Origin: Bacteroidales bacterium
GTDB taxonomy: Bacteria; Bacteroidota; Bacteroidia; Bacteroidales; P3
Direction of reading: 5' to 3'
Assembly (NCBI GenBank): GCA_017439185.1
Contig: JAFRTM010000025.1
Coordinates: forward strand, 1 to 40,715
Length of the DNA: 40,715 nucleotides
Under the pieces are notes generated by a model. That model did not search any database and was not told the DNA's origin. It saw nothing but the letters and a program-made list of their open reading frames with translations. Numbering within the stretch: the stretch's first letter is position 1; every line of letters begins with the position of its first letter. Of this stretch, positions 20,082 through 40,715 are shown piece by piece. A program made the translations under genes and the position numbers.

Positions 20082-21188
20082 ATGAAAACTACTCCTTACA
20101 CCGACTTACACATCGCATTGGGAGCCAAGATGGCAGAATTTGCCGGCTACAATATGCCTATCCAGTACACCGGCCTCGTCGAAGAGCATAACAACGTACG
20201 CAACAATGTTGGCGTGTTCGACGTGAGCCACATGGGCGAATTCCGTGCTAAAGGTCCCATCGCCAAGCATTTCATGCAGTATGTCACCACCAACAACGTC
20301 GAGGACCTCTTCGACGGTAAGGTGCAATATACCTGCCTCCCCAACGGTCAAGGTGGCGTGGTTGACGACATGCTCGTCTATCGCGTGAAGGACGACGAAT
20401 ATTTTATGGTGCCCAACGCCGCCAACATCGACAAGGACTGGAACTGGATGAGCCAGATTGCCGACAAGATGGGCATGGAACTCGGCAAAGACTTCGTCAA
20501 CGAGAGCGAGCAGTGGGCTCAGCTCGCCGTTCAGGGCCCCAACGCCCTCAAGGCTATGCAGAAACTTACCAGCGAGAATATCGTGGATATGGAGTACTAC
20601 ACCTTCAAGATCCTCACCTTCGCCGGCATCCCTGACATCATCCTCTCCACTACCGGTTACACCGGAGCTGGCGGATGCGAGATCTACATCCCGCGCGAGA
20701 AAGCCATCGAAGTGTGGAACGCCGTCTTCGAGGCTGGTAAGGAATTCGGCATCATGCCCGCCGGTCTCGGTTGCCGCGACACCCTGCGTCTGGAGAAGGG
20801 CTTCGCCCTCTATGGCCACGAGATGGACGACACCGTCAGCCCCCTCGAGGCTCCGCTGGCCTTCATCGTCAAGCTGAAAGCCGAGAACAACAACTTCATC
20901 AACAAGGAACTCCTCCTCGCCCAGAAAGCCGCCGGTTTCAAACGCAAAGTGGTCGGATTCGAGATGATTGATCGCGGTATCGCCCGCAACGGCTACGAAG
21001 TCTGCAACGCCGAAGGCAAGAAGATCGGTGAGGTACGCAGCGGAAGCCCCAGCCCCAGCACCGGTAAGAACATCGGCACCGCCCTTATCTGCGCCGACTA
21101 CGCCAAGGTAGGCACCGAGATCTACATCAAGATCCGCGAGAAGCTCCTCAAGGCCGTCACCGTCAAGATGCCGTTCTACGAGGGATAA
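20082..21188 (+). CDS. gcvT: glycine cleavage system T protein (aminomethyltransferase)
   Basis: GcvT transfers the methylene carbon from aminomethyl-lipoyl GcvH to tetrahydrofolate, releasing ammonia. The 368 residues match the family. It opens with TPYTDLHIALGAKMAEFAGYNMPIQY, followed by VFDVSHMGEF (45-54), the folate-site block STTGYTGAGGCEIY, and the C-terminal DRGIARNGYEV and GEVRSGSPSPSTGKNIG. It has its own promoter and is followed 49 bases later by a DUF1015 gene that shares the transcript up to the terminator at 22520. gcvP is 9 kb away on the other strand, and gcvH is not in the window. Confidence 0.97.
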   Translation: MKTTPYTDLHIALGAKMAEFAGYNMPIQYTGLVEEHNNVRNNVGVFDVSHMGEFRAKGPIAKHFMQYVTTNNVEDLFDGKVQYTCLPNGQGGVVDDMLVYRVKDDEYFMVPNAANIDKDWNWMSQIADKMGMELGKDFVNESEQWAQLAVQGPNALKAMQKLTSENIVDMEYYTFKILTFAGIPDIILSTTGYTGAGGCEIYIPREKAIEVWNAVFEAGKEFGIMPAGLGCRDTLRLEKGFALYGHEMDDTVSPLEAPLAFIVKLKAENNNFINKELLLAQKAAGFKRKVVGFEMIDRGIARNGYEVCNAEGKKIGEVRSGSPSPSTGKNIGTALICADYAKVGTEIYIKIREKLLKAVTVKMPFYEG

Positions 21189-30501: not shown

Positions 30502-33357
30502 TTACTCTTCGTTGGGCCAGGTTGCCTGGAGGTTACGGTCGCCGTAGGCGTCGTCAATCTTGCTGATGGTCGGCCAGTACTTGTCTTCGTGCGGCATGGG
30601 GAATGCTGCCGTCTGACGGCTGTAAGGATAGTTCCACTCGTCGGCGCAGACCACCTGCATGGTGTGAGGTGCGTTGGCGATGGGATTGTTCTTCTCGTCG
30701 TATTTGCCGCTCATGATGTCGTCGATTTCCTGCTTGATGCTGATCAATGCATCGCAGAAGCGGTCAAGCTCGCTGAGAGGCTCACTCTCGGTAGGCTCCA
30801 CCATCAGGGTGTTGTGGACGGGGAATGCCACAGTGGGAGCGTGGAAGCCGTAGTCGTCGAGACGGCGGGCGATGTCGCCTACGCCTACCTTCAGGCTGTA
30901 TTCGTTGAAATCGACTATCATCTCGTGGCCGCACATGCCGTTCTTGTTGGTATAGAGAATCTTATAGTATTTCTGCAGACGTGCGCGGATGTAGTTGGCG
31001 TTGAGTATGGCATGCTTGGTAGCCTCGGTCAGGCCGTTGCCGCCAAGCATGAGCAGGTAGCCGTAGCTGATGGGGAACAGGAGGAAGTTGCCGAACGGAG
31101 CGGCAGCCATGGCGTTGCCCTTCTCGCCACCCACCTTGCGCATGCAGTGTTTTGGCAGGAAGTCAACCAACTTGGCGCTCACTGCGATAGGACCTACTCC
31201 AGCGCCGCCACCACCGTGAGGACCTGCGAAGGATTTGTGGAGGTTGAGGTGGCACACGTCGGCACCCATGCGGCCCGGCGAGGTTATGCCGATCTGGGCG
31301 TTCATGTTGGCGCCGTCCATATACACCAATCCGCCTGCGCCGTGGATGATGTCCACAATCTCGAGGATGCCCTCTTCGAAAGCGCCGTGGGTGGAAGGAT
31401 AGGTTATCATGATGCAGGAGAGTGTATCCTTGTACTGCTCCACTTTTTCTTTCAGGTCGTTGATATCCACGTCGCCGCGCTCGTCGCACTTCACAACCAC
31501 GACGGTCATGCCCGCCTTGGCTGCCGAGGCGGGGTTGGTGCCGTGAGCCGAAGCTGGGATGAGGCATACGTTACGCTGCGGGTTGCCGTTGTCGATGTGA
31601 TAGTTACGTATGACAGTCAATCCGCTGTACTCGCCAGCCGAGCCCGAGTTGGGCTGCAGCGACACACCGGCAAAGCCTGTGACAATGGCCAGCAGTTCTT
31701 CCATCTCTTTTATCATCTCCAGCGAGCCTTCGGCCTGGTCGGCTGGGGCGAAGGGGTGCATGCCGGCGAATTTGCTCCAACTGAGCGGAAGCATCTCGGT
31801 GGCTGCGTTGAGCTTCATGGTGCAGCTGCCCAGCGGTATCATGGCGCGGTTGAGGCTGAGGTCTTTGACCTCGAGTTTCTTCATGTAACGCATCATCTCG
31901 GTCTCGCTGTGGTATTTGTTGAAGACGCTGTGTGTGAGGTATTTGCTGCTGCGTTTGAGGCTGTCGGGTATCGAGCAGATGTCGGTGCAGCAATTCTTGC
32001 CGCTGCACTGCAGCAGTTCGGGTTGCTTGCCGGCTGCTTCGGCCAACACCTTGATAATGTTATTGATGTCGTCTTTGGATGTGGTTTCGTCGAGGCTGAT
32101 GCCGATGCAATCTTCGCAGATGTAGCGGAAGTTGATTTCGTTGGCCAAAGCAACCTTTTTCACCACGTCGGTCTTGACAGGACACTGCAGGGCCAATGTG
32201 TCGAAGAATACTCGATTGTGCTGTTTGTAGCCGTATTTTTCCAGTTCTTTGGCCAAAACGGTTGCCTGAGCGTGCATGTTGGCGGCAATTCTCCTGATGC
32301 CTTCGGGACCGTGCCAAGCGGCATAGAAACCGCTCATGATGGCCTGCAGAGCCGAAGCAGTGCAGATGTTGGAGGTTGCCTTCTCGCGTTTGATGTGCTG
32401 CTCACGCATACCGAGAGCCATACGGAGGGCGGGATTGCCCTTGGCATCGACGCTCCAGCCGATGATGCGGCCGGGGAAGCTGCGCTTGAACGCCTCGGTG
32501 ACGGCGAAGAAGCCGGCATGAGGACCGCCGAAGCCCATCGGCAGGCCGAAACGCTGGTTGGAACCGAAGGCGCAGTCGGCACCCATCTCGCCGGGAGTCT
32601 TCAGCAGAGCGAGAGCCATCAGGTCGGTGGCGACACCCACGAAGATGCCCAGTTCGTGAGCCTTGGCTATGAAGTCGGTGTAGTCATTGACCTCGCCGAA
32701 CTGGTCGGGATACTGCACCACGGCGCCGAAGAATGTGTTGTCGAGCTGAACCTCAGCGGGTTTACCTGTAACAATCTCGATTCCGCGAGGAGCGGCATTG
32801 GTGCGCATCACGTCGAGTGTCTGCGGGAATATGCGGTCGTCGACGAAAATCTTGTGAACGTTGTCTTTCACAGCCTGACGGCTGCGGGAGTTGTAGAACA
32901 TGATCATACACTCGCCGCCTGCGGTTGCCTCGTCGAGCAGCGATGCGTTGGCCAGAGGCATGCCGGTCATGTCGGCCACCATGGTCTGATAGGTCATGAG
33001 AGCTTCGAGACGGCCTTGGCTGATCTCGGTCTGATAGGGTGTGTAGGCGGTGTACCAGCCGGCGTTCTCAAACACGTTGCGCTGGATGACGGCCGGGGTA
33101 ATGGTGCCGTAGTAGCCCATACCGATGTATGTCTTGTAGAGTTTGTTTTTCTGAGCCAGCGTGCGGCAACGGTTGAGAAACTCATACTCGTTGATGCCGT
33201 CGGCGATTGGCATAGGCTTGTCGAGCCTTATGCTCGCCGGCACTGCCTTGTCGATAAGTTCATCCATCGATGCAACGCCGATGGTTTTAAGCATTTTTTC
33301 TTCCTCGGAAGCCTTTGACACTCCGTCGTGACGCTCTGTGAAATCATTGGTAATCAT
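30502..33357 (-). CDS. gcvP: glycine dehydrogenase (decarboxylating), P protein
   Basis: GcvP decarboxylates glycine with pyridoxal phosphate and passes the aminomethyl group to lipoyl-GcvH. The 951 residues are the single-chain (fused alpha/beta) form. The PLP lysine is K708 in HLNLHKSFAGPHGGGGAGVGPI. The N-terminal half begins with a helix and IGMGYYGTITPAVIQRNVFENAGWYTAYTPYQTEISQGRLEAL, and the mid-chain PLNRAMIPLGSCTMKLN-type block is present (LNRAMIPLGSCTMKLNAATEM). It has its own promoter at 33406. gcvT is 9 kb away on the opposite strand, and gcvH and lpd are not seen. Confidence 0.98.
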   Translation of the reverse strand: MITNDFTERHDGVSKASEEEKMLKTIGVASMDELIDKAVPASIRLDKPMPIADGINEYEFLNRCRTLAQKNKLYKTYIGMGYYGTITPAVIQRNVFENAGWYTAYTPYQTEISQGRLEALMTYQTMVADMTGMPLANASLLDEATAGGECMIMFYNSRSRQAVKDNVHKIFVDDRIFPQTLDVMRTNAAPRGIEIVTGKPAEVQLDNTFFGAVVQYPDQFGEVNDYTDFIAKAHELGIFVGVATDLMALALLKTPGEMGADCAFGSNQRFGLPMGFGGPHAGFFAVTEAFKRSFPGRIIGWSVDAKGNPALRMALGMREQHIKREKATSNICTASALQAIMSGFYAAWHGPEGIRRIAANMHAQATVLAKELEKYGYKQHNRVFFDTLALQCPVKTDVVKKVALANEINFRYICEDCIGISLDETTSKDDINNIIKVLAEAAGKQPELLQCSGKNCCTDICSIPDSLKRSSKYLTHSVFNKYHSETEMMRYMKKLEVKDLSLNRAMIPLGSCTMKLNAATEMLPLSWSKFAGMHPFAPADQAEGSLEMIKEMEELLAIVTGFAGVSLQPNSGSAGEYSGLTVIRNYHIDNGNPQRNVCLIPASAHGTNPASAAKAGMTVVVVKCDERGDVDINDLKEKVEQYKDTLSCIMITYPSTHGAFEEGILEIVDIIHGAGGLVYMDGANMNAQIGITSPGRMGADVCHLNLHKSFAGPHGGGGAGVGPIAVSAKLVDFLPKHCMRKVGGEKGNAMAAAPFGNFLLFPISYGYLLMLGGNGLTEATKHAILNANYIRARLQKYYKILYTNKNGMCGHEMIVDFNEYSLKVGVGDIARRLDDYGFHAPTVAFPVHNTLMVEPTESEPLSELDRFCDALISIKQEIDDIMSGKYDEKNNPIANAPHTMQVVCADEWNYPYSRQTAAFPMPHEDKYWPTISKIDDAYGDRNLQATWPNEE

Positions 33358-34670: not shown

Positions 34671-35504
34671 ATGAAAATCAGAGGATTATTCATCGTAATG
34701 GTTGCAGGAGCACTGGCTTGCCTGCTGCTGACCGGCTGCAAGAACGGCAAAGTGGCCGCAAATGGAAAACTGACATGGCAGGAGAAAGACGGAAAATGGG
34801 GCATGGTGGACAAGAACGGCAAAGTGGTTGTGCCTTATGAATACGACTATATAGATGAGTACACTCTTAACAATGTGTATAGGTGTTTAGAAAATAAGGA
34901 CGATGACTTTCTATTGAAGGTAGGCAAAGGAGAGCGTGAAGATGAGCATCAATTAAAAGAGGGCGCTAAATATGGATATGTAAATATGCGAGGCGAAGTG
35001 GTGATTCCTCTGGAATATGATTGGATGTATGGATGGTTCGGTGAAGACGGTTGCTCAGTGGTGGAGAAAAACGGCAAGTGGGGCGCAATCGACAAGAAGG
35101 GCAATATAGTTGTGCCAATTGAATATGACGACTTTATTCACCCTGATGGTTATGGCTGGTCTATTTTCAATGAAGACGGATTTGCGGTAGTGGTGAAAGA
35201 TGGAAAGAAAGGTCTAGTGGACAAAAACGGAAAAGAGATTATCCCCTGTGAATATGAGAGTGTTTCCCATGGTTTTTCGGAAGGAATGGCGGCCGTGGGA
35301 ATTGGCGGCGAATTCGATGACGAGGGTTTCTATATTGATGGCGGCAAATGGGGATTCGTTGACGAGACTGGAAAACTGGTTATACCTCTCATCTATGACG
35401 ACGTAACGTCTTTCAAAGACGGCAAGGCTTATGTGAAGAAAGACGGCAAGGAAGGCTATATCAACCAAAAGGGAGAGTTTACCGAGGAAAAACAAGGCAA
35501 ATGA
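34671..35504 (+). CDS. WG-repeat lipoprotein
   Basis: A 277-residue lipoprotein with lipobox LLLTGC (Cys23), so it is probably anchored in the envelope. The mature part is a string of WG-type beta repeats. Five full units follow the pattern GKWG-x-(V/I)D-x-x-GK-(I/V)-(V/I)P-x-x-YD; they occur near residues 40, 98, 136, 181 and 225, and a sixth is shorter (KEGYINQKGEF). Such repeats form surface or periplasmic beta structures of unknown role. The stop codon overlaps the start of the cupin gene (ATGA), so the two are translationally coupled. A clear promoter precedes it. Confidence 0.88.
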   Translation: MKIRGLFIVMVAGALACLLLTGCKNGKVAANGKLTWQEKDGKWGMVDKNGKVVVPYEYDYIDEYTLNNVYRCLENKDDDFLLKVGKGEREDEHQLKEGAKYGYVNMRGEVVIPLEYDWMYGWFGEDGCSVVEKNGKWGAIDKKGNIVVPIEYDDFIHPDGYGWSIFNEDGFAVVVKDGKKGLVDKNGKEIIPCEYESVSHGFSEGMAAVGIGGEFDDEGFYIDGGKWGFVDETGKLVIPLIYDDVTSFKDGKAYVKKDGKEGYINQKGEFTEEKQGK

Positions 35505-35869
35505 ATGATATTGACAACCTTATAGTGATTGGTAACCGAGTGCTGGTGAAGCCCTTGCTCGACTCGGTGAGCGGGCTCTACAACGTCAGTTTCGAACCTG
35601 GCTGCCGCAACAACTGGCACGTCCACCCCGGTGCCGTGCAGATGCTCATCTGCGTCAGCGGTCGCGGCTGGTATCAGGAGTGGGGCAAACCGGCCGTGGA
35701 GCTGAAGCCTGGCGTCACTATCGCCGTCCCCGAGGGTGTGAAGCATTGGCACGGTGCAGCCAAAGACAGTTGGATGCAGCACCTTACCTACCACGCCAAC
35801 GCCAAGCCCGGTAACAGCAATGAGTGGCTCGAACCTGTCACCGACGAACAATACAATACCATGCAGTAA
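35501..35869 (+). CDS. cupin protein with GroES-like N-terminus
   Basis: A 122-residue single-domain cupin. NVSFEPGCRNNWHVHPGAVQMLICVSGRGWYQEWGKPAVELKPGVTIAVPEGVKHWHGA contains both cupin motifs; metal ligands would be His at NWHVH, the Gln near QMLI, and His at KHWH. Members often sit beside carboxymuconolactone-decarboxylase or flavodoxin genes. The odd feature is the start, MNDIDNLIVIGNRVLVKP, which matches the GroES-fold protein at 23935 in 13 of 18 positions. The gene begins 4 bases before the WG-lipoprotein stop and is followed, after 45 bases, by a flavodoxin gene. Substrate unknown. Confidence 0.85.
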   Translation: MNDIDNLIVIGNRVLVKPLLDSVSGLYNVSFEPGCRNNWHVHPGAVQMLICVSGRGWYQEWGKPAVELKPGVTIAVPEGVKHWHGAAKDSWMQHLTYHANAKPGNSNEWLEPVTDEQYNTMQ

Positions 35870-35877
35870 TTTGCAAA

Positions 35878-35925
35878 AAACACTAATACACTAACGCAAT
35901 CACACAATAACGCAATGAACAAGAT
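35878..35925 (+). repeat. 48-bp direct repeat, copy A (first start region)
   Basis: Positions 35878-35925 match 35986-36033 at 43 of 48 bases, an offset of exactly 108 (36 codons). Both copies end in the context CAATGAACAA and each carries an in-frame ATG (35915 and 36023). The repeat is A/C-rich. Confidence 0.85.
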
Positions 35926-36529
35926 CCTCACCTTAGGCCTTGCACTCCTTTTGGCCAGCGGCTGCAATGCGCAAAGCAAACAAGAAAACACTAACACAAT
36001 AACGCAATCAAACAATAACACAATGAACAAAATAGTCATCTTCTTCTCCCACGCGGGCGATAATTACAGCGTGGGCAACATCGAGGTCGGCAACACCAAG
36101 ATTGTGGCCGACTACATCAGCGAAATCACGGGTGCCGACCAATACGAGATTGTCACCCATAAGTACGACGGTATGGCCTACACGCCGCTTATCAACCTGG
36201 CCAAGAAAGAGGCTGCCGACGGTGAGCTGCCTCCCTACGAGGGTGCTGCCCCCGACCTCAGCCAATACGACACCGTCTTCATCGGCGGCCCCGTGTGGTG
36301 GGGTACCTATCCGCAAGTGATGTTCACACTGTTCCGCGACATCGACCTCTCTGGCAAGACCGTTATTCCCTTCACCACCCACGAGGGCAGCGGCCTGGCC
36401 AACTGCGTCAACGACGTGAAGAAAGCCTTCCCCAAGGCCACCGTCACCAAAGGCTTCTCCATCTTTGGCCATGAAGTCCGCACAGGCAAAGCCAAAGTGG
36501 AGAAGTGGCTGAAAGGACTGGGGTATTGA
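35915..36529 (+). CDS. flavodoxin-like protein with lipoprotein signal, two possible starts
   Basis: The long form has 204 residues with a lipobox LLLASGC (Cys17) and a short Asn/Thr/Gln linker. The short form would start at Met37 (ATG 36023; MNKIVIFFSHAGDNYSVG), exactly where a normal cytosolic flavodoxin begins. The body has the flavodoxin features: an FMN phosphate loop near SHAGDNYSVGN...GNTK, DTVFIGGPVWWGTYPQ, and TTHEGSGLAN. Flavodoxins of this type often reduce quinones or act with cupin/HxlR genes. The upstream start region is duplicated within the coding sequence (35986-36033), so both starts have the same initiation context. The cupin gene lies 45 bases upstream, and a second cupin follows. 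Confidence 0.9.
   Translation: MNKILTLGLALLLASGCNAQSKQENTNTITQSNNNTMNKIVIFFSHAGDNYSVGNIEVGNTKIVADYISEITGADQYEIVTHKYDGMAYTPLINLAKKEAADGELPPYEGAAPDLSQYDTVFIGGPVWWGTYPQVMFTLFRDIDLSGKTVIPFTTHEGSGLANCVNDVKKAFPKATVTKGFSIFGHEVRTGKAKVEKWLKGLGY
35986..36033 (+). repeat. 48-bp direct repeat, copy B (internal start region)
   Basis: Copy of 35878-35925 with 5 differences. It encodes residues 25-40 of the long form and places an ATG at 36023 in the same context as the first start. Confidence 0.85.
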
Positions 36530-36681
36530 TATCTCGGCGGTGGCTGCGATTGATACGTTGCTCAACCCCAAAAAGGGAACTTCGCAACTCGATTAAGCAG
36601 AAAAAAGACCGTCATTCCGACGACCTTATGTGTTAAATAAGTGTTAAAGTGCCGGCAGCGGTTTCTTGCAGTTACGATATT

Positions 36682-36699
36682 ACTTACCCAGAAGTAAGT
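36682..36699 (+). promoter_or_regulatory. inverted repeat ACTTAC-N6-GTAAGT, candidate HxlR operator
   Basis: ACTTAC at 36682-36687 and GTAAGT at 36694-36699 are perfectly complementary, separated by six bases. The site lies just upstream of the promoter of the second cupin and 640 bases from the HxlR gene. HxlR-family regulators commonly bind short TTAC/GTAA-type inverted repeats near genes they control, so this is a plausible target, by inference only. Confidence 0.5.
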
Positions 36700-36720
36700 G
36701 GCTTACGCCCGGGTACCCTC

Positions 36721-36751
36721 TTGCGGGGTTTCGGAAAGCATTGTACTTTTG
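36721..36751 (+). promoter_or_regulatory. promoter of the second cupin
   Basis: TTG at 36721-36723, about 20 bases, then TACTTTTG at 36744-36751. This places transcription downstream of an upstream in-frame start at 36666 and makes the ATG at 36792 the true start. Confidence 0.75.
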
Positions 36752-36791
36752 CAACCGAAAAACAGTTAAACAACTTAAAAAAAAAATAGCA

Positions 36792-37244
36792 ATGAGAACA
36801 ATCGAAAACATCAAGAGCGGTCGCAACTATGCCGCCGTCAACGTAGGAAGTATTGAACAGATTATTGAGCACCAGCTCCCAATGGGTCCCAATGTCATCC
36901 AGGGCAAGGTGTTCGTTGGTCAGGCGGTGGGCGCCACCGGCAGCGAGCTGTCGTTCCAGACGCTTGTGCCTGGTCAGGACAGCGGATTCCTGCACACCCA
37001 CAAGACCCACGAGGAGCTCTACATCATCCTGCGCGGCAACGGCACCTATCAGGTCGACGGCGAGCAGTTCCCCGTCAGCGAGGGCACCGTGGTTCGCGTC
37101 AGTCCCGACGGTCGTCGCGCCCTGAAGAACACGGGTTCCGAGCCCCTCACCATGCTTTGCATCCAATACAAGGCCAACGCCTTCACCGAGGCCGACAGCC
37201 CGATGACCGACGGCAACATCCTCGCCGACCCGCTGACTTGGTAA
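36792..37244 (+). CDS. cupin-domain protein, 150 aa
   Basis: A cytoplasmic beta-barrel cupin. The open frame reaches back to 36666, but the promoter at 36744 shows that the start is the ATG at 36792 (MRTIENIKSGRNYAAVNVGS). Motif 1 is SGFLHTHKTHEELYIILRGNG (around 64-84), with His residues and the Glu as metal ligands. Motif 2 is less exact (EGTVVRVSPDGRRALKNTG), where the usual His is replaced. Such cupins are often stress-responsive and lie beside HxlR regulators, as here. A terminator at 37270-37301 separates it from the HxlR gene. Reaction unknown. Confidence 0.88.
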   Translation: MRTIENIKSGRNYAAVNVGSIEQIIEHQLPMGPNVIQGKVFVGQAVGATGSELSFQTLVPGQDSGFLHTHKTHEELYIILRGNGTYQVDGEQFPVSEGTVVRVSPDGRRALKNTGSEPLTMLCIQYKANAFTEADSPMTDGNILADPLTW

Positions 37245-37269
37245 CGACTTGTCACAATTAGCATCATGG

Positions 37270-37301
37270 CAGGCGGACAGGATAGATTGTCCGCCTGTTT
37301 T
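37270..37301 (+). terminator. terminator after the cupin gene
   Basis: CAGGCGGACA (37270-37279) pairs perfectly with TGTCCGCCTG (37288-37297), followed by TTTT. It ends the cupin transcript before the HxlR gene. Confidence 0.85.
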
Positions 37302-37339
37302 AAGAAAAAGTTGTATCTTTACACCTCCAAAACATCGAT

Positions 37340-37714
37340 ATGAACAAAGACTTCATCAAAGACCCTTACTTCCCGGAGTGCCCCATCCGCAATGTTCTGG
37401 CACGCATTGGTGGCAAATGGACGCTGGCAGTTCTTTACACGCTAGGCGGCAGCGAGACACCGCTGCGCTTCAAGGAGATTGAAAAGGCAAACCCCGACTG
37501 CTCCCAAAAGATGCTGACCCAGACCCTTCGCGGCTTGGAGGCTGACGGACTCGTATGCCGCACCGTCTATCCCGAGATGCCGCCACGCGTGGAATATGCC
37601 CTTACCGGCCGTGGCAGCTCCTTCCTTCCCGTCATGCGCCAGCTCATCGACTGGGCCTACCACAACCTGCACGACATCGTAACCGATAGAGAGAAATACT
37701 ATGGGCAGGATTGA
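37340..37714 (+). CDS. HxlR-family winged-helix regulator
   Basis: A 124-residue winged-helix DNA-binding protein. CPIRNVLARIGGKWTLAVLYTLGG (14-37) is the HxlR signature, followed by RFKEIEKANPDCSQKMLTQTLRGLEADGLVCRTVYPEMPPRVEYALTGRG. There is a Cys at position 14, next to the conserved Pro, plus C54 and C73. In the HypR/YodB-type members an N-terminal Cys senses oxidants or electrophiles, so redox sensing is a reasonable inference. The stop overlaps the macrodomain start by 14 bases, so it heads an operon with the macrodomain and sirtuin genes. A weak TATCTTTA lies before it. Confidence 0.92.
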   Translation: MNKDFIKDPYFPECPIRNVLARIGGKWTLAVLYTLGGSETPLRFKEIEKANPDCSQKMLTQTLRGLEADGLVCRTVYPEMPPRVEYALTGRGSSFLPVMRQLIDWAYHNLHDIVTDREKYYGQD

Positions 37715-38522
37715 GAACATCGATTATTGCATCCGTTACCTGCTGGAGCAGAACCACACTCAGGCCGACATTCCAGCAGAATTGGCGGGGAAGCAACAAT
37801 TGCTGCGAGCGCTCATGAACGTTACGGAAGTCGAGAGAAGAGCAAACGTGTTTGCTCTGCCGAGATGCAGTAACGTCACCGAGGGTAATATATGGGAGCC
37901 GCAACCGTTGAGCGTCGAGTTTATTCGGGCGCAGAATGCCGAGTTGCAGGCACAACTGACGGACAAAGGTGTGGTGGCTTTGGAAGACATCTCCACGTCG
38001 GGCAGGACCCCTCTCCTCTGGCAGGGCGACATCACCCAACTGAAGGTTGATGCCATCGTCAATGCCGCCAACAGCCGCGGACTTGGTTGCTGGCATCCGC
38101 TGCATGCCTGCATCGACAACGCTATTCATTCGGCGGCGGGGTTGCAGCTGCGGCAAGCGTGCAACAACATACTGCGTGGAGGCGAGATAGACACTGGTGA
38201 CGCCATTATCACGCCTGGCTATAACCTACCCTCCAAATATGTGATTCACACAGTTGGTCCCATTATCGCCACCGGCAACCCCACGCCGGAGCAGGAACGT
38301 CAGCTGGCAGCTTGCTACCGCAAGTGCCTCGAATTGGCCGAAACCAACGGATGCCACTCGATAGCCTTCTGCTGTATCTCCACCGGCGAGTTCCGCTTCC
38401 CCAACCGCCGTGCCGCCGAGATTGCCGTGGAAGCATGCAGAGGTGCGAAGACAAAAGTGATATTCAACGTTTTCAAGGATATTGACTATGCCATCTACCG
38501 ACAACTTCTCGGAAAGGATTAA
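37701..38522 (+). CDS. zinc-dependent macrodomain protein (ADP-ribosylhydrolase type)
   Basis: This 273-residue protein has the layout of Zn-macro proteins, which remove mono-ADP-ribose from proteins and are encoded beside SirTM sirtuins. The macrodomain reads QGDITQLKVDAIVNAANSRGLGCWHPLHACIDNAIH (108-143); the probable zinc ligands are C130, H135 and C137. SKYVIHTVGPI and IAFCCISTGEF follow. The N-terminal helical part is interrupted: after RALMNV, about 25 residues (roughly 41-65) separate it from PLSVEF, where known relatives run straight on. This stretch carries a palindrome (37839-37858). The gene overlaps HxlR at its start and the sirtuin at its end. Confidence 0.92.
   Translation: MGRIENIDYCIRYLLEQNHTQADIPAELAGKQQLLRALMNVTEVERRANVFALPRCSNVTEGNIWEPQPLSVEFIRAQNAELQAQLTDKGVVALEDISTSGRTPLLWQGDITQLKVDAIVNAANSRGLGCWHPLHACIDNAIHSAAGLQLRQACNNILRGGEIDTGDAIITPGYNLPSKYVIHTVGPIIATGNPTPEQERQLAACYRKCLELAETNGCHSIAFCCISTGEFRFPNRRAAEIAVEACRGAKTKVIFNVFKDIDYAIYRQLLGKD
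37820..37875. mobile_element. possible palindromic element inserted in frame in the macrodomain gene
   Basis: A 20-bp palindrome, AGAGCAAACGTGTTTGCTCT (37839-37858, central GT unpaired), is framed by CGTTAC (37820-37825) and GTAACG (37870-37875). The frame stays open and the palindrome encodes RANVFAL. The inserted stretch lies where the protein is longer than its family. It resembles the Rickettsia palindromic elements in idea, not in sequence. Mobile origin is an inference. Confidence 0.45.
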
Positions 38523-39324
38523 CCTCCTGCACAAGGCGATAAGCGAAGCCGACCATATCATTATTGGCGCGGGCAGCGGGCTTTCAACCGCTGCCGGTAT
38601 CGACTATGGCGGCGAGGAGTTCCGCTGCGAGTTTTCTCCGTGGATTGAGCGCTACGGTTTCACCGACCTCTACACCTCGTCGTTCTACCCCTTCGAGACG
38701 CAGGAAGAATACTGGGCCTACTGGGCCAAGCATATCTGGTTCAGCCGTTACCGCACAGGTGCCACTGGACTGTACAAGATGCTTCTACGGCGTTTCCCCA
38801 AGGCTTTTGTGGTGACGACCAATGTCGACGGCCAGTTCGAGCTGGCAGGCTTCCCCGCGGAGCGCATCTTCGCCACACAAGGCGACTACCGATGGTTTCA
38901 GCCAGCATCCGGGACACCGAAGACTTTGATTGACAACCATGAGTGGGTGATGCGAGTGCTGCCGCTCATCGACGACTGTCGCATACCCACGGAGATGATT
39001 CCCACCATGCCCGACGGCAGCCCGGCTGCGATGAATCTACGCGTGGACGAAACCTTCGTCGAGGACTTCCGCTGGCACCTGCAGGCGCGACGCTACACCG
39101 ATTTCGTGCAGCAGGCTTCGCAGGGTAAACTGCTATTGCTCGAATTCGGCATAGGCTACAACACCCCCGGCATCATTCGCCTCCCTTTCGAGCAGATGGC
39201 ACAGCGATTCCCCCACACCACCCTCATCCGTTTCAACCGCGACAACCCCGAGCCCTACATCGAGGATTTGCCCCGCTTCACAGCATTTACAGAAGACATT
39301 GCGTCGATTCTAAACCTGACGTAA
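38488..39324 (+). CDS. M-class sirtuin (SirTM), protein ADP-ribosyltransferase type
   Basis: A 278-residue NAD-dependent sirtuin of the macro-linked class. In the known Gram-positive cases SirTM adds ADP-ribose to a lipoylated GcvH-like protein. The NAD site starts with IIIGAGSGLSTAAGID (about 25-39). The usual TQNIDxL is VTTNVDGQ (N112, D114). The deacetylase His is replaced by Gln131 in ATQGD, which marks this class. The region that normally holds a four-Cys zinc ribbon has only one Cys (DDCRIP), so zinc appears absent. VDETFVEDFRWHLQARRY and LLLLEFGIGYNTPGIIRLPFEQM follow. It overlaps the macrodomain gene by 35 bases. A TTG at 38482 is a less likely start. Confidence 0.92.
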   Translation: MPSTDNFSERINLLHKAISEADHIIIGAGSGLSTAAGIDYGGEEFRCEFSPWIERYGFTDLYTSSFYPFETQEEYWAYWAKHIWFSRYRTGATGLYKMLLRRFPKAFVVTTNVDGQFELAGFPAERIFATQGDYRWFQPASGTPKTLIDNHEWVMRVLPLIDDCRIPTEMIPTMPDGSPAAMNLRVDETFVEDFRWHLQARRYTDFVQQASQGKLLLLEFGIGYNTPGIIRLPFEQMAQRFPHTTLIRFNRDNPEPYIEDLPRFTAFTEDIASILNLT

Positions 39325-39517
39325 AAGGATCAAACAATAATATCTGCGATTGCACGTTTATTCTATATAGGTGGGTTCTATTAATTCCAGAATTAGATAA
39401 TCTATATTTTGAACGGTTTGATAATTAATGATTTATAATCTTATTTTTTGTTTTTTTCCGTTTTTTCAGATGTTCCCTATAATCAAACATTCTTAACACA
39501 GTAATACAGATACTACA

Positions 39518-40093
39518 ATGAAAAAAGACCTTGGAGTTGTGCCGGCGGTGTACCCGATGCCGGTTTTGATGGTGGCCGCCTACGATGAGAGCGGCCGCGT
39601 GAACGTGATGAATGCCGCTTGGAGCATGATTTGCGGCATGGACAAAATCGCCCTCTTCATCAGCGAAGGCCACAAGACTACGCAGAATATCCTAAAGACA
39701 AAAGCCTTCACCGTCAGCATCGCCGACCGCGACCATATGGATGTGGCCGATTATTTCGGCATTGTCACCGGCAACAAGACCCCCGACAAGTTCGAATGCA
39801 CGGGCTACCACGCCGTCCGCAGCAGCCGCGTCAACGCCCCCGTCATCGACGAGTTCCCCGTGGCGATGGAGTGCGAGCTGGCCGATGTGGTGGAGACCGA
39901 AACGTTGTACTGCATCGTGGGCAGGATAGTCAACGTCGCCGCCGAGGAGAGCGTTCTCAGCGAGAATGGCAAAGTAAACCCAGCCAAGCTCAACGCCCTT
40001 ATATTCGACCAGTTCCAGAACGGCTACTACGTCATGGGCGAGCAGGTGGGCCGTGCCTGGAACGCCGGTGCCGCACTGGCCAAAGCAAAATAG
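39518..40093 (+). CDS. flavin reductase-like protein (FMN split barrel)
   Basis: A 191-residue protein of the flavin reductase-like family, which binds FMN and may reduce flavin or a small substrate with NAD(P)H. The start DLGVVPAVYPMPVLMVAAYDESGRVNVMNAAWSMICGMDKIALFIS fits the split-barrel FMN site, followed by HKTTQNILKTKAFTVSIADRDHMDVADYFGIVTG. It lies 193 bases after the sirtuin, so an independent promoter is possible, though none is convincing. Flavoproteins are also found near SirTM operons in Gram-positive bacteria. The acyltransferase gene follows after 67 bases. Confidence 0.9.
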   Translation: MKKDLGVVPAVYPMPVLMVAAYDESGRVNVMNAAWSMICGMDKIALFISEGHKTTQNILKTKAFTVSIADRDHMDVADYFGIVTGNKTPDKFECTGYHAVRSSRVNAPVIDEFPVAMECELADVVETETLYCIVGRIVNVAAEESVLSENGKVNPAKLNALIFDQFQNGYYVMGEQVGRAWNAGAALAKAK

Positions 40094-40160
40094 TCCGTGA
40101 GGCCTTACAACTGAGAAACGCCACCCTATAGGCAATAACAACCTCCAAAACCTTAAGACA

Positions 40161-40715
40161 TTGAACACACCCACAGGAAAAGACTATGTCGGCAGCGACG
40201 AACTCTACGCCGACGTGCAGCGCACTATGCGGCTCTGCGCCGAAATGAACAGCGGCTACCACACCGAGGCCGAGGTGCGCGACTGCCTGCGCGAGATTAC
40301 ACGCAGCGAGGTACCCGACACCGTGCGTGTCTTCACACCGATTAACATCAACTACGGCCCCGGTGTGCGCTTCGGCGACGACTGCTTCCTCAACTTCGGC
40401 TGTACGCTGCTCGCCATCGGCGGCATCACCATCGGCGGCGGGGCCTTCATCGGCCCCCACTGTGTGCTGGCCACCGAGTACCACCCCGAGGACCCCGCCA
40501 CGCGGCACACTCTGCTCACCAAACCCATCATCATTGGCCGTAACGCCTGGCTGGGCGCCGACGTCAAGGTGCTGGCCGGTGTCACCATAGGCGAGAACGC
40601 CATCGTGGCGGCCGGAAGCGTGGTCACCAAGGATGTGCCCGACAATATGGTCGTGGCCGGAACACCTGCCAAGGTGATTCGCGAAATCAATCAAAAAACC
40701 GCTCATATAAACTAA
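40161..40715 (+). CDS. hexapeptide (maltose/galactoside-type) O-acetyltransferase
   Basis: A 184-residue left-handed beta-helix acyltransferase of the Maa/LacA type, which moves acetyl from acetyl-CoA to a sugar hydroxyl. The N-terminal ELYADVQRTMRLCAEMN matches the family's helical cap. The hexapeptide coils run through GGITIGGGAFIGPHCVLATEYHPED, with catalytic His108, and IIIGRNAWLGADVKVLAGVTIGENAIVAAGSVV, ending in MVVAGTPAKVIREI. No upstream ATG exists back to the in-frame TGA at 40098, so a TTG at 40161 is used. The stop TAA is the last three bases of the window. The substrate is unknown. Confidence 0.9.
   Translation: MNTPTGKDYVGSDELYADVQRTMRLCAEMNSGYHTEAEVRDCLREITRSEVPDTVRVFTPININYGPGVRFGDDCFLNFGCTLLAIGGITIGGGAFIGPHCVLATEYHPEDPATRHTLLTKPIIIGRNAWLGADVKVLAGVTIGENAIVAAGSVVTKDVPDNMVVAGTPAKVIREINQKTAHIN

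Follow-up and report, generated by a model that had tools for sequence, protein, structure and literature searches.

A minimal SirTM/Zn-Macro operon with an HxlR-family regulator in a Bacteroidales bacterium, a candidate module for thiol-stress-regulated ADP-ribosylation

Introduction

Which protein is modified by an ADP-ribosylation writer and eraser whose operon holds no GcvH-L carrier, and what would call the two enzymes into action? This question is raised by three overlapping genes in a Bacteroidales bacterium related to ruminant-gut species (GenBank assembly GCA_017439185.1, contig JAFRTM010000025.1). The whole stretch of DNA analyzed, 40,715 nucleotides long, is called the window below, and the operon and the flanking elements given with coordinates lie on its forward strand. 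The three genes encode an HxlR/DUF24 winged-helix regulator (37340..37714; PF01638, E 4.3e-27), a zinc-type macrodomain protein (Zn-Macro; 37701..38522) and a class M sirtuin that is probably a protein ADP-ribosyltransferase (SirTM; 38488..39324, with its ATG at 38488). An earlier note on this sequence had described the genes as overlapping end to end, and the overlaps are indeed 14 and 35 bases.

The writer/eraser pair itself is already known. In the text available from Rack 2015 (PMC4518038), class M sirtuins are defined by QG in place of HG and by linkage to a macrodomain, and are found in independent or extended operons. Ariza 2024 (PMC11490716), in its available text, describes the Zn-Macros and a minimal operon consisting of the pair alone, and gives both the targets beyond the extended operon and the physiological role as unknown. 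The window holds such a minimal form, without GcvH-L and LplA2. What is new is the linkage to a regulator, a link to flavoproteins and a SirTM that lacks the zinc motif. The words HxlR, Rrf2, pyridoxamine and cupin are absent from the main texts of these two papers, which thus do not mention the regulator and neighborhood that we find conserved around the pair; among the literature matches listed, none joins SirTM/Zn-Macro with HxlR, although this is no proof of absence from print.

Our favored reading, which we hold with moderate confidence, is that a dedicated HxlR-family regulator controls this minimal SirTM/Zn-Macro operon and that the locus serves thiol-stress-regulated, reversible ADP-ribosylation of a target other than GcvH-L. 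From residues and family membership we infer the following steps. SirTM would attach single ADP-ribose units from NAD+ to a partner protein, and the zinc macrodomain would take them off again, activities suggested here by residues and relatives and shown by others in Gram-positives. The HxlR protein would probably bind its own promoter and switch state on reaction of Cys14 with oxidants or electrophiles, and thiol stress would thereby bring about joint production of writer and eraser. Our best guess for the target is a flavin- or NAD(P)H-using stress-response protein, such as a PNPOx-type flavoprotein, or another neighbor.

Results and Discussion

The HxlR gene stays with the pair

Relatives of the locus were collected by a genome scan with a SirTM alignment from the genus, which yielded 130 relatives; the best 80 of the 130 were retained. 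These are titled Bacteroidales, Bacteroidetes, Prevotella or other Bacteroidota groups and come mostly from ruminant-gut drafts; together with the window they make 81 stretches, each with at most 7 kb per side. A second set comprised 25 genomes of the genus, 12 of which hold SirTM (leaving out a scrap in the window's own genome); their 12 loci were inspected over longer stretches. Because some contigs are common to both, the two sets are not independent.

The earlier note had staked its proposal on the regulator staying with the pair in relatives, and this it does: an HxlR relative is present in 63 of the 81 stretches, with at least two of the copies broken. The gene lies upstream on the same strand in 31, downstream on the same strand in 15 and on the opposite strand in 17. 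Of the upstream copies, 24 overlap or abut Macro, five stand directly before SirTM with no Macro between, and two are placed otherwise. Among the 12 genus loci, HxlR lies directly 5' of Macro in eight (the window and seven relatives), after SirTM in three, and is missing from one (G012). All eight of the former have the 14-base overlap, and recurrence at the same size argues that it is not a chance reading.

Within the genus, an HxlR ortholog (at least 74% identity) is found in 11 of the 12 genomes with SirTM and in two of the 13 without it (Fisher p 0.0002, counting G018 by an unlinked 82% copy and uncorrected for kinship). In the two SirTM-less genomes, G015 and G023, 38 and 31 Macro codons directly follow HxlR, as expected of decayed operons; the HxlR genes of two others, G003 and G024, are less similar (59% and 53%). 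Since the 25 genomes contain only 23 HxlR matches in total, chance proximity should be rare. Pairwise SirTM distances correlate with those of HxlR about as well as with those of Macro (r 0.66 and 0.69) and better than with those of cupinB, a neighboring gene (r 0.37), a congruence that, lacking a control for species relationships, is only suggestive. We take the HxlR gene to be a true neighbor of the pair.

These data also bear on the idea that HxlR is a chance neighbor governing the flavodoxin and cupin genes instead of the pair. HxlR genes with flavoprotein neighbors are common, and cupinB has remained beside HxlR in two loci where SirTM and most of Macro are gone. We nonetheless consider this explanation quite improbable, given the recurrence of HxlR in several arrangements, including the overlap with Macro and abutment to SirTM where Macro is absent, and a probable terminator between HxlR and cupinB in the window. 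The latter gene encodes a Cupin_2 protein (PF07883) at 36789..37244, counted from its likely ATG start (the listed open reading frame begins at 36666), and is followed at 37268..37299 by a 13-pair hairpin and TTTT, which we regard as the probable terminator of this upstream gene (fold -22.5 kcal/mol, z -5.9); the hairpin is absent from the list of a stricter terminator scan.

A probable thiol-stress sensor

The N-terminal cysteine noticed earlier is Cys14, and it and a second cysteine, Cys54, are each present in 58 of the 63 HxlR sequences aligned, which represent 62 loci without L068. Among nine HxlR genes that lie elsewhere in the genus, away from SirTM or its remnants (L140, L147-L149, L151-L155), only L149, with a stop in its frame, has Cys54; in the remaining eight the position is occupied by I, L or A. 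For the HxlR of L156 no alignment was obtained. According to the available text of PMC6943732, the Bacillus subtilis regulators HypR, YodB and CatR detect HOCl, quinones and diamide by way of an N-terminal cysteine. Family, conserved N-terminal cysteine and nearby flavoprotein genes are common to these DUF24 regulators and the window's HxlR, which differs from HypR in the placement of its second conserved cysteine. The second cysteine of HypR, which we take to be at position 49, aligns with Asn51, and Cys54 sits three residues further on, so a HypR-type disulfide cannot be claimed. Family knowledge and the two conserved cysteines together suggest that HxlR is probably a thiol-stress sensor.

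Together with the hairpin described above, a candidate promoter signal upstream of HxlR points to a transcription start of the operon's own. Of 62 loci, 38 have an exact copy of the motif TAnnTTTG, presumably the Bacteroidota -7 element, in the 80 bases upstream of the gene, and mononucleotide shuffles average 1.8; the window's TATCTTTA (37314..37321) has one mismatch, which puts the window outside the 38. Rfam gave no match at E 1 across 35500-40715.

A predicted writer without the zinc motif and its eraser

The assignment of the sirtuin to class M, already proposed in the earlier note, is supported by both sequence and fold. Its only two matches among solved structures by sequence are the Streptococcus pyogenes SirTM (5a3a) and a fungal Mfs1 fusion (8rsn), and the same two entries rank first for an AlphaFold2 model (pLDDT 82.5, from an alignment of eight sequences), with a TM-score of 0.85 to 5a3a; Pfam gave no match at E 0.001. 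The site residues N, D, Q, G and R are present in all 81 aligned sequences, QG replacing the catalytic HG and thus Gln the deacylase His, and with Asn118 and Arg192 (S. pyogenes numbering) as the N and R. Of the motif G[VI]Gx[NT]TP, the G, G, N, T and P positions are intact in 80 sequences and gapped in the remaining one; the window's I stands in the place of the V given by Rack 2015. These residues predict an ADP-ribosyltransferase-class enzyme.

The four-cysteine zinc motif, on the other hand, is absent from all 81 Bacteroidota sequences, whose small domain has one cysteine (68 sequences) or two (13), a single one of them invariant (in DCRIP in the window). The S. pyogenes enzyme and six further SirTMs from outside the Bacteroidota, once aligned, keep two cysteine pairs there. 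A zinc-coordinating small domain is a feature of the solved S. pyogenes SirTM and not part of the stated class definition, and the window's small domain is modelled with confidence, at block means of 88-96 with 79 at its end. We predict no zinc in this protein and suggest that the Bacteroidota hold a zinc-free SirTM lineage.

On contig C28 (L186 1461-3216) of the window's own genome, the final 35-37 codons of a SirTM gene are present as a scrap, followed by paralogs of the flavin reductase (94%) and of the acetyltransferase (75%); this is either a second cassette copy in decay or an artefact of assembly. Two SirTM-like matches were seen in phage records.

The putative eraser matches PF01661 and, above its cut-off, the NCBIfam protein-ADP-ribose hydrolase model NF003163, with 8rsi and 5kiv among its relatives in the PDB. 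The closest solved relative is the Methanobrevibacter oralis protein (8rsi, 234 bits), followed by those of Staphylococcus aureus (180) and S. pyogenes (155), organism names being those in the available text of PMC11490716. The zinc loop pointed out in the earlier note is present as C130-x4-H135-x-C137, and in 77 Macro sequences its ligands are conserved as C in 76, H in 75 and C in 75, the remainder being gaps. Alignment to 8rsi suggests an N-terminal helical bundle as well.

The constant company of these two enzymes invites another explanation, in which SirTM would be a harmful ADP-ribosyltransferase, Zn-Macro its antidote and HxlR the regulator of a toxin-antitoxin-like operon. Macro is present in 75 of the 81 stretches; of the six others, five come from genomes that were searched and have a Macro elsewhere, and the sixth (L054) ends 146 bases upstream. 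Every SirTM genome tested also encodes a Macro: all 12 in the genus, and all 6 of those in which it is unlinked or distant. That SirTM was not found without Macro in these genomes suits a writer needing its eraser and a toxin-like pair alike and does not decide between them. The toxin-like reading gains from the occurrence of Macro without SirTM in G008 and beside a partly deleted SirTM in G044, and from the repeated decay of the cassettes. It is nevertheless unlikely in our view: a search of the six proteins against PADLOC at E 0.001 gave no match (0/6), known SirTMs are described as specific and are not termed toxic in the available text of PMC4518038, and the regulator and neighbors are stress and flavin genes. 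A phage-defence system was rejected by the same search. The G044 locus (L185 5438-6499) consists of a full-length Macro and, after it, a SirTM that has lost a large internal part, and two further SirTM loci, L034 and L069, belong by title to the same assembly.

A substrate that is probably not GcvH-L

With a predicted writer and eraser in place, the substrate becomes the central question. In the extended operon of Staphylococcus and Streptococcus, as given in the available text of PMC4518038, the same writer and eraser families are accompanied by nearby flavin enzymes and a proposed link to oxidative stress, features in common with the window. GcvH-L and LplA2, by contrast, were not found at the window, so it does not belong with the extended operons, and OYE and LLM are not among the neighbors named here, though no separate search was made for them. 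The earlier note had found neither carrier nor ligase adjacent to the pair and named flavodoxin, cupins and a flavin reductase as neighbors; this is correct, the cupins being two, and the absence extends to the relatives. No GcvH or LplA gene was found near the pair in any of the 81 stretches, using the genome's own GcvH and LplA and the Aerococcus GcvH-L and LplA2 as queries, and positive controls worked.

Nor does GcvH-L seem to be encoded elsewhere. The GCV_H model used for genome searches detects the Aerococcus GcvH-L at 65.6 bits. Each of the 12 SirTM genomes of the genus has one GCV_H match (11 full-length, one a weak fragment), and a further 19 SirTM genomes divide into 16 with a single match and three, all drafts, with none. 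With at most one match in each of the 31, no separate GcvH-L was found elsewhere in these genomes, and the idea was set aside. Since neither the surroundings of the pair nor the genomes examined yielded such a carrier, a different substrate, as the earlier note had suggested, is likely.

The note's second suggestion, a carrier acting in trans, fares less well. It would have the canonical lipoylated GcvH, or another lipoyl protein, serve as in Staphylococcus with the parts unlinked. The window's genome does contain one full-length GcvH with a lipoyl motif and one clear LplA (a second LplA-B_cat match looks like a biotin ligase), and gcvT (20082-21188) and gcvP (30502-33357) lie in the window, unlinked to the operon as the note had said. 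However, a helix of canonical GcvH that is missing in GcvH-L has been proposed to occlude the modified residues (PMC4518038, available text). The Arg pair of the S. aureus Macro, close to the lipoyl lysine in a modelled complex with GcvH-L (PMC11490716, available text), aligns with Ala-Thr in the window and with non-Arg residues in the 12 commonest variants, the match of numbering being our own. The same source reports that MorMacro, from a lone pair, does not demodify GcvH-L. These points, together with the three draft genomes lacking a GcvH match, leave us giving little credence to a carrier in trans.

Two further known systems are close to the locus. The minimal operons of M. oralis, Enterococcus faecalis and Treponema pedis (PMC11490716, available text) also consist of an adjacent pair without GcvH-L and LplA2, and MorMacro is the closest solved Zn-Macro to that of the window; the window differs in the HxlR gene overlapping the pair and in a SirTM without the zinc cysteine motif. 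The fungal Mfs1 fusions (8rsn) likewise combine Zn-Macro and SirTM, which in the window are separate genes accompanied by a regulator.

Flavoproteins as candidate targets

The neighbors named in the earlier note stand beside the pair in the window and are only partly conserved in its relatives. The most frequent among the 81 stretches are cupinB (46), a PNPOx-type flavoprotein (38, or 31 under stricter clustering) and an unnamed lipoprotein (22), followed by flavodoxin (11), a leucine-rich repeat protein (10), an NmrA-like NAD(P)H-binding protein (7), cupinA (6, from a raw count of 12 that included six weak matches to cupinB itself) and the flavin reductase (5). We regard the PNPOx-type flavoprotein as the most telling of these partners. 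Its genes are not always adjacent to the pair and a few are on the other strand; in the genus, all five strong PNPOx matches lie beside the pair and a sixth, in G017, is weak (23%). In the window, a Flavin_Reduct-domain protein (39518..40093; PF01613) is encoded directly 3' of SirTM, and in one of its five stretches this gene is on the opposite strand. PNPOx and Flavin_Reduct domains have a common flavin mononucleotide (FMN) split-barrel fold, and the window's protein is a possible local stand-in for the PNPOx-type flavoprotein.

Similar company is kept by pairs outside the Bacteroidota, for which nine plasmid records were compared: Aerococcus, Mesobacillus and seven others with adjacent sirtuin and Macro. 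The Aerococcus plasmid carries an extended operon, and that of Mesobacillus has two sirtuins with no macrodomain annotated nearby. A PNPOx-domain protein is near three of the seven remaining pairs, next to it in Enterococcus and Roseburia and one gene away in Treponema. Near the pair in Enterococcus, Treponema and Niallia there is an Rrf2 regulator together with an NmrA-like or NAD(P)H-binding protein, and Enterococcus also has an HxlR gene about 2 kb downstream. In Roseburia, a divergent HxlR, with the N-terminal cysteine and without Cys54, heads a gene run ending PNPOx/Fer4-Macro-SirTM. The Vibrio pair has a flavodoxin-fold protein and LysR regulators nearby, and in Subdoligranulum a MerR regulator lies about 2.5 kb from the pair; the remaining Subdoligranulum neighbors and those of Streptomyces are listed as frames only. 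Thus flavin or NAD(P)H proteins and a regulator of stress type are often, and not always, found with the lone pair. Ahead of the PNPOx/4Fe-4S fusion, the Roseburia cluster (L191 704-3244) also encodes a nitroreductase and an ACGX-repeat peptide with its radical SAM protein.

One attractive, if fairly doubtful, generalization is that lone SirTM/Zn-Macro pairs across phyla form a single conserved stress module. Its sensor, HxlR or Rrf2, would drive the reversible modification with ADP-ribose of a small flavoprotein with the FMN split-barrel fold, of PNPOx type in general and of Flavin_Reduct type in the window. If true, this flavoprotein would be the missing substrate of the lone-pair systems, and the Bacteroidota would work with a zinc-free SirTM lineage.

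Several observations weigh against a thiol-stress module with HxlR as its dedicated regulator. Eighteen of the 81 stretches have no HxlR match (seven of them with less than 2 kb of upstream sequence), and L068 has only fragmentary ones. The SirTM-linked HxlR of G018 (L053) holds a stop and is 67% identical, the copy in L051 resembles it, and the unlinked 82% copy in G018 has Cys54 replaced; G012 has SirTM and only a 55% HxlR paralog elsewhere in its genome. Five HxlR-SirTM loci (L036, L038, L039, L069 and L092) lack an adjacent Macro, which is elsewhere in the genome in all five. As a common HxlR operator, GTAAC-N5-GTTAC (up to two mismatches) was rejected, being found in a minority of loci only: 6 of 17 with HxlR on the opposite strand (in shuffles 0.9 on average and at most 4) and 2 of the other 45. 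Finally, no PNPOx-type gene was found in the window's own genome at E 0.001, and an ortholog acting there in trans was accordingly dropped as a candidate. Of the redox module first proposed, then, the genes and the HxlR linkage hold up and a different substrate is likely; the named neighbors are only partly conserved and the trans carrier is weakened.

The conserved context nevertheless reduces the search to a short list of candidate targets (the PNPOx-type flavoprotein, the flavin reductase and cupinB) and indicates a class of inducer to try. It also shifts attention in terms of organisms: the pair is present in many ruminant-gut Bacteroidales, whereas the available text of Rack 2015 (PMC4518038) stressed pathogens.

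A palindromic insert in Macro

The window's Macro gene carries an in-frame insert of 69 bases (23 residues, 37824..37892, within 37819-37892) that consists of a dispersed palindromic element and is not part of the mechanism. Seven aligned relatives are without the insert, and L032, L083, L088 and L091 have it. Sixteen genomes were searched for the element, and 10 of them hold it, at 21 places that include the window's copy; it has no Rfam match, and 11 hand-picked copies display compensatory changes at 9 of 19 predicted pairs. The element resembles the palindromic elements that lie within genes of Rickettsia.

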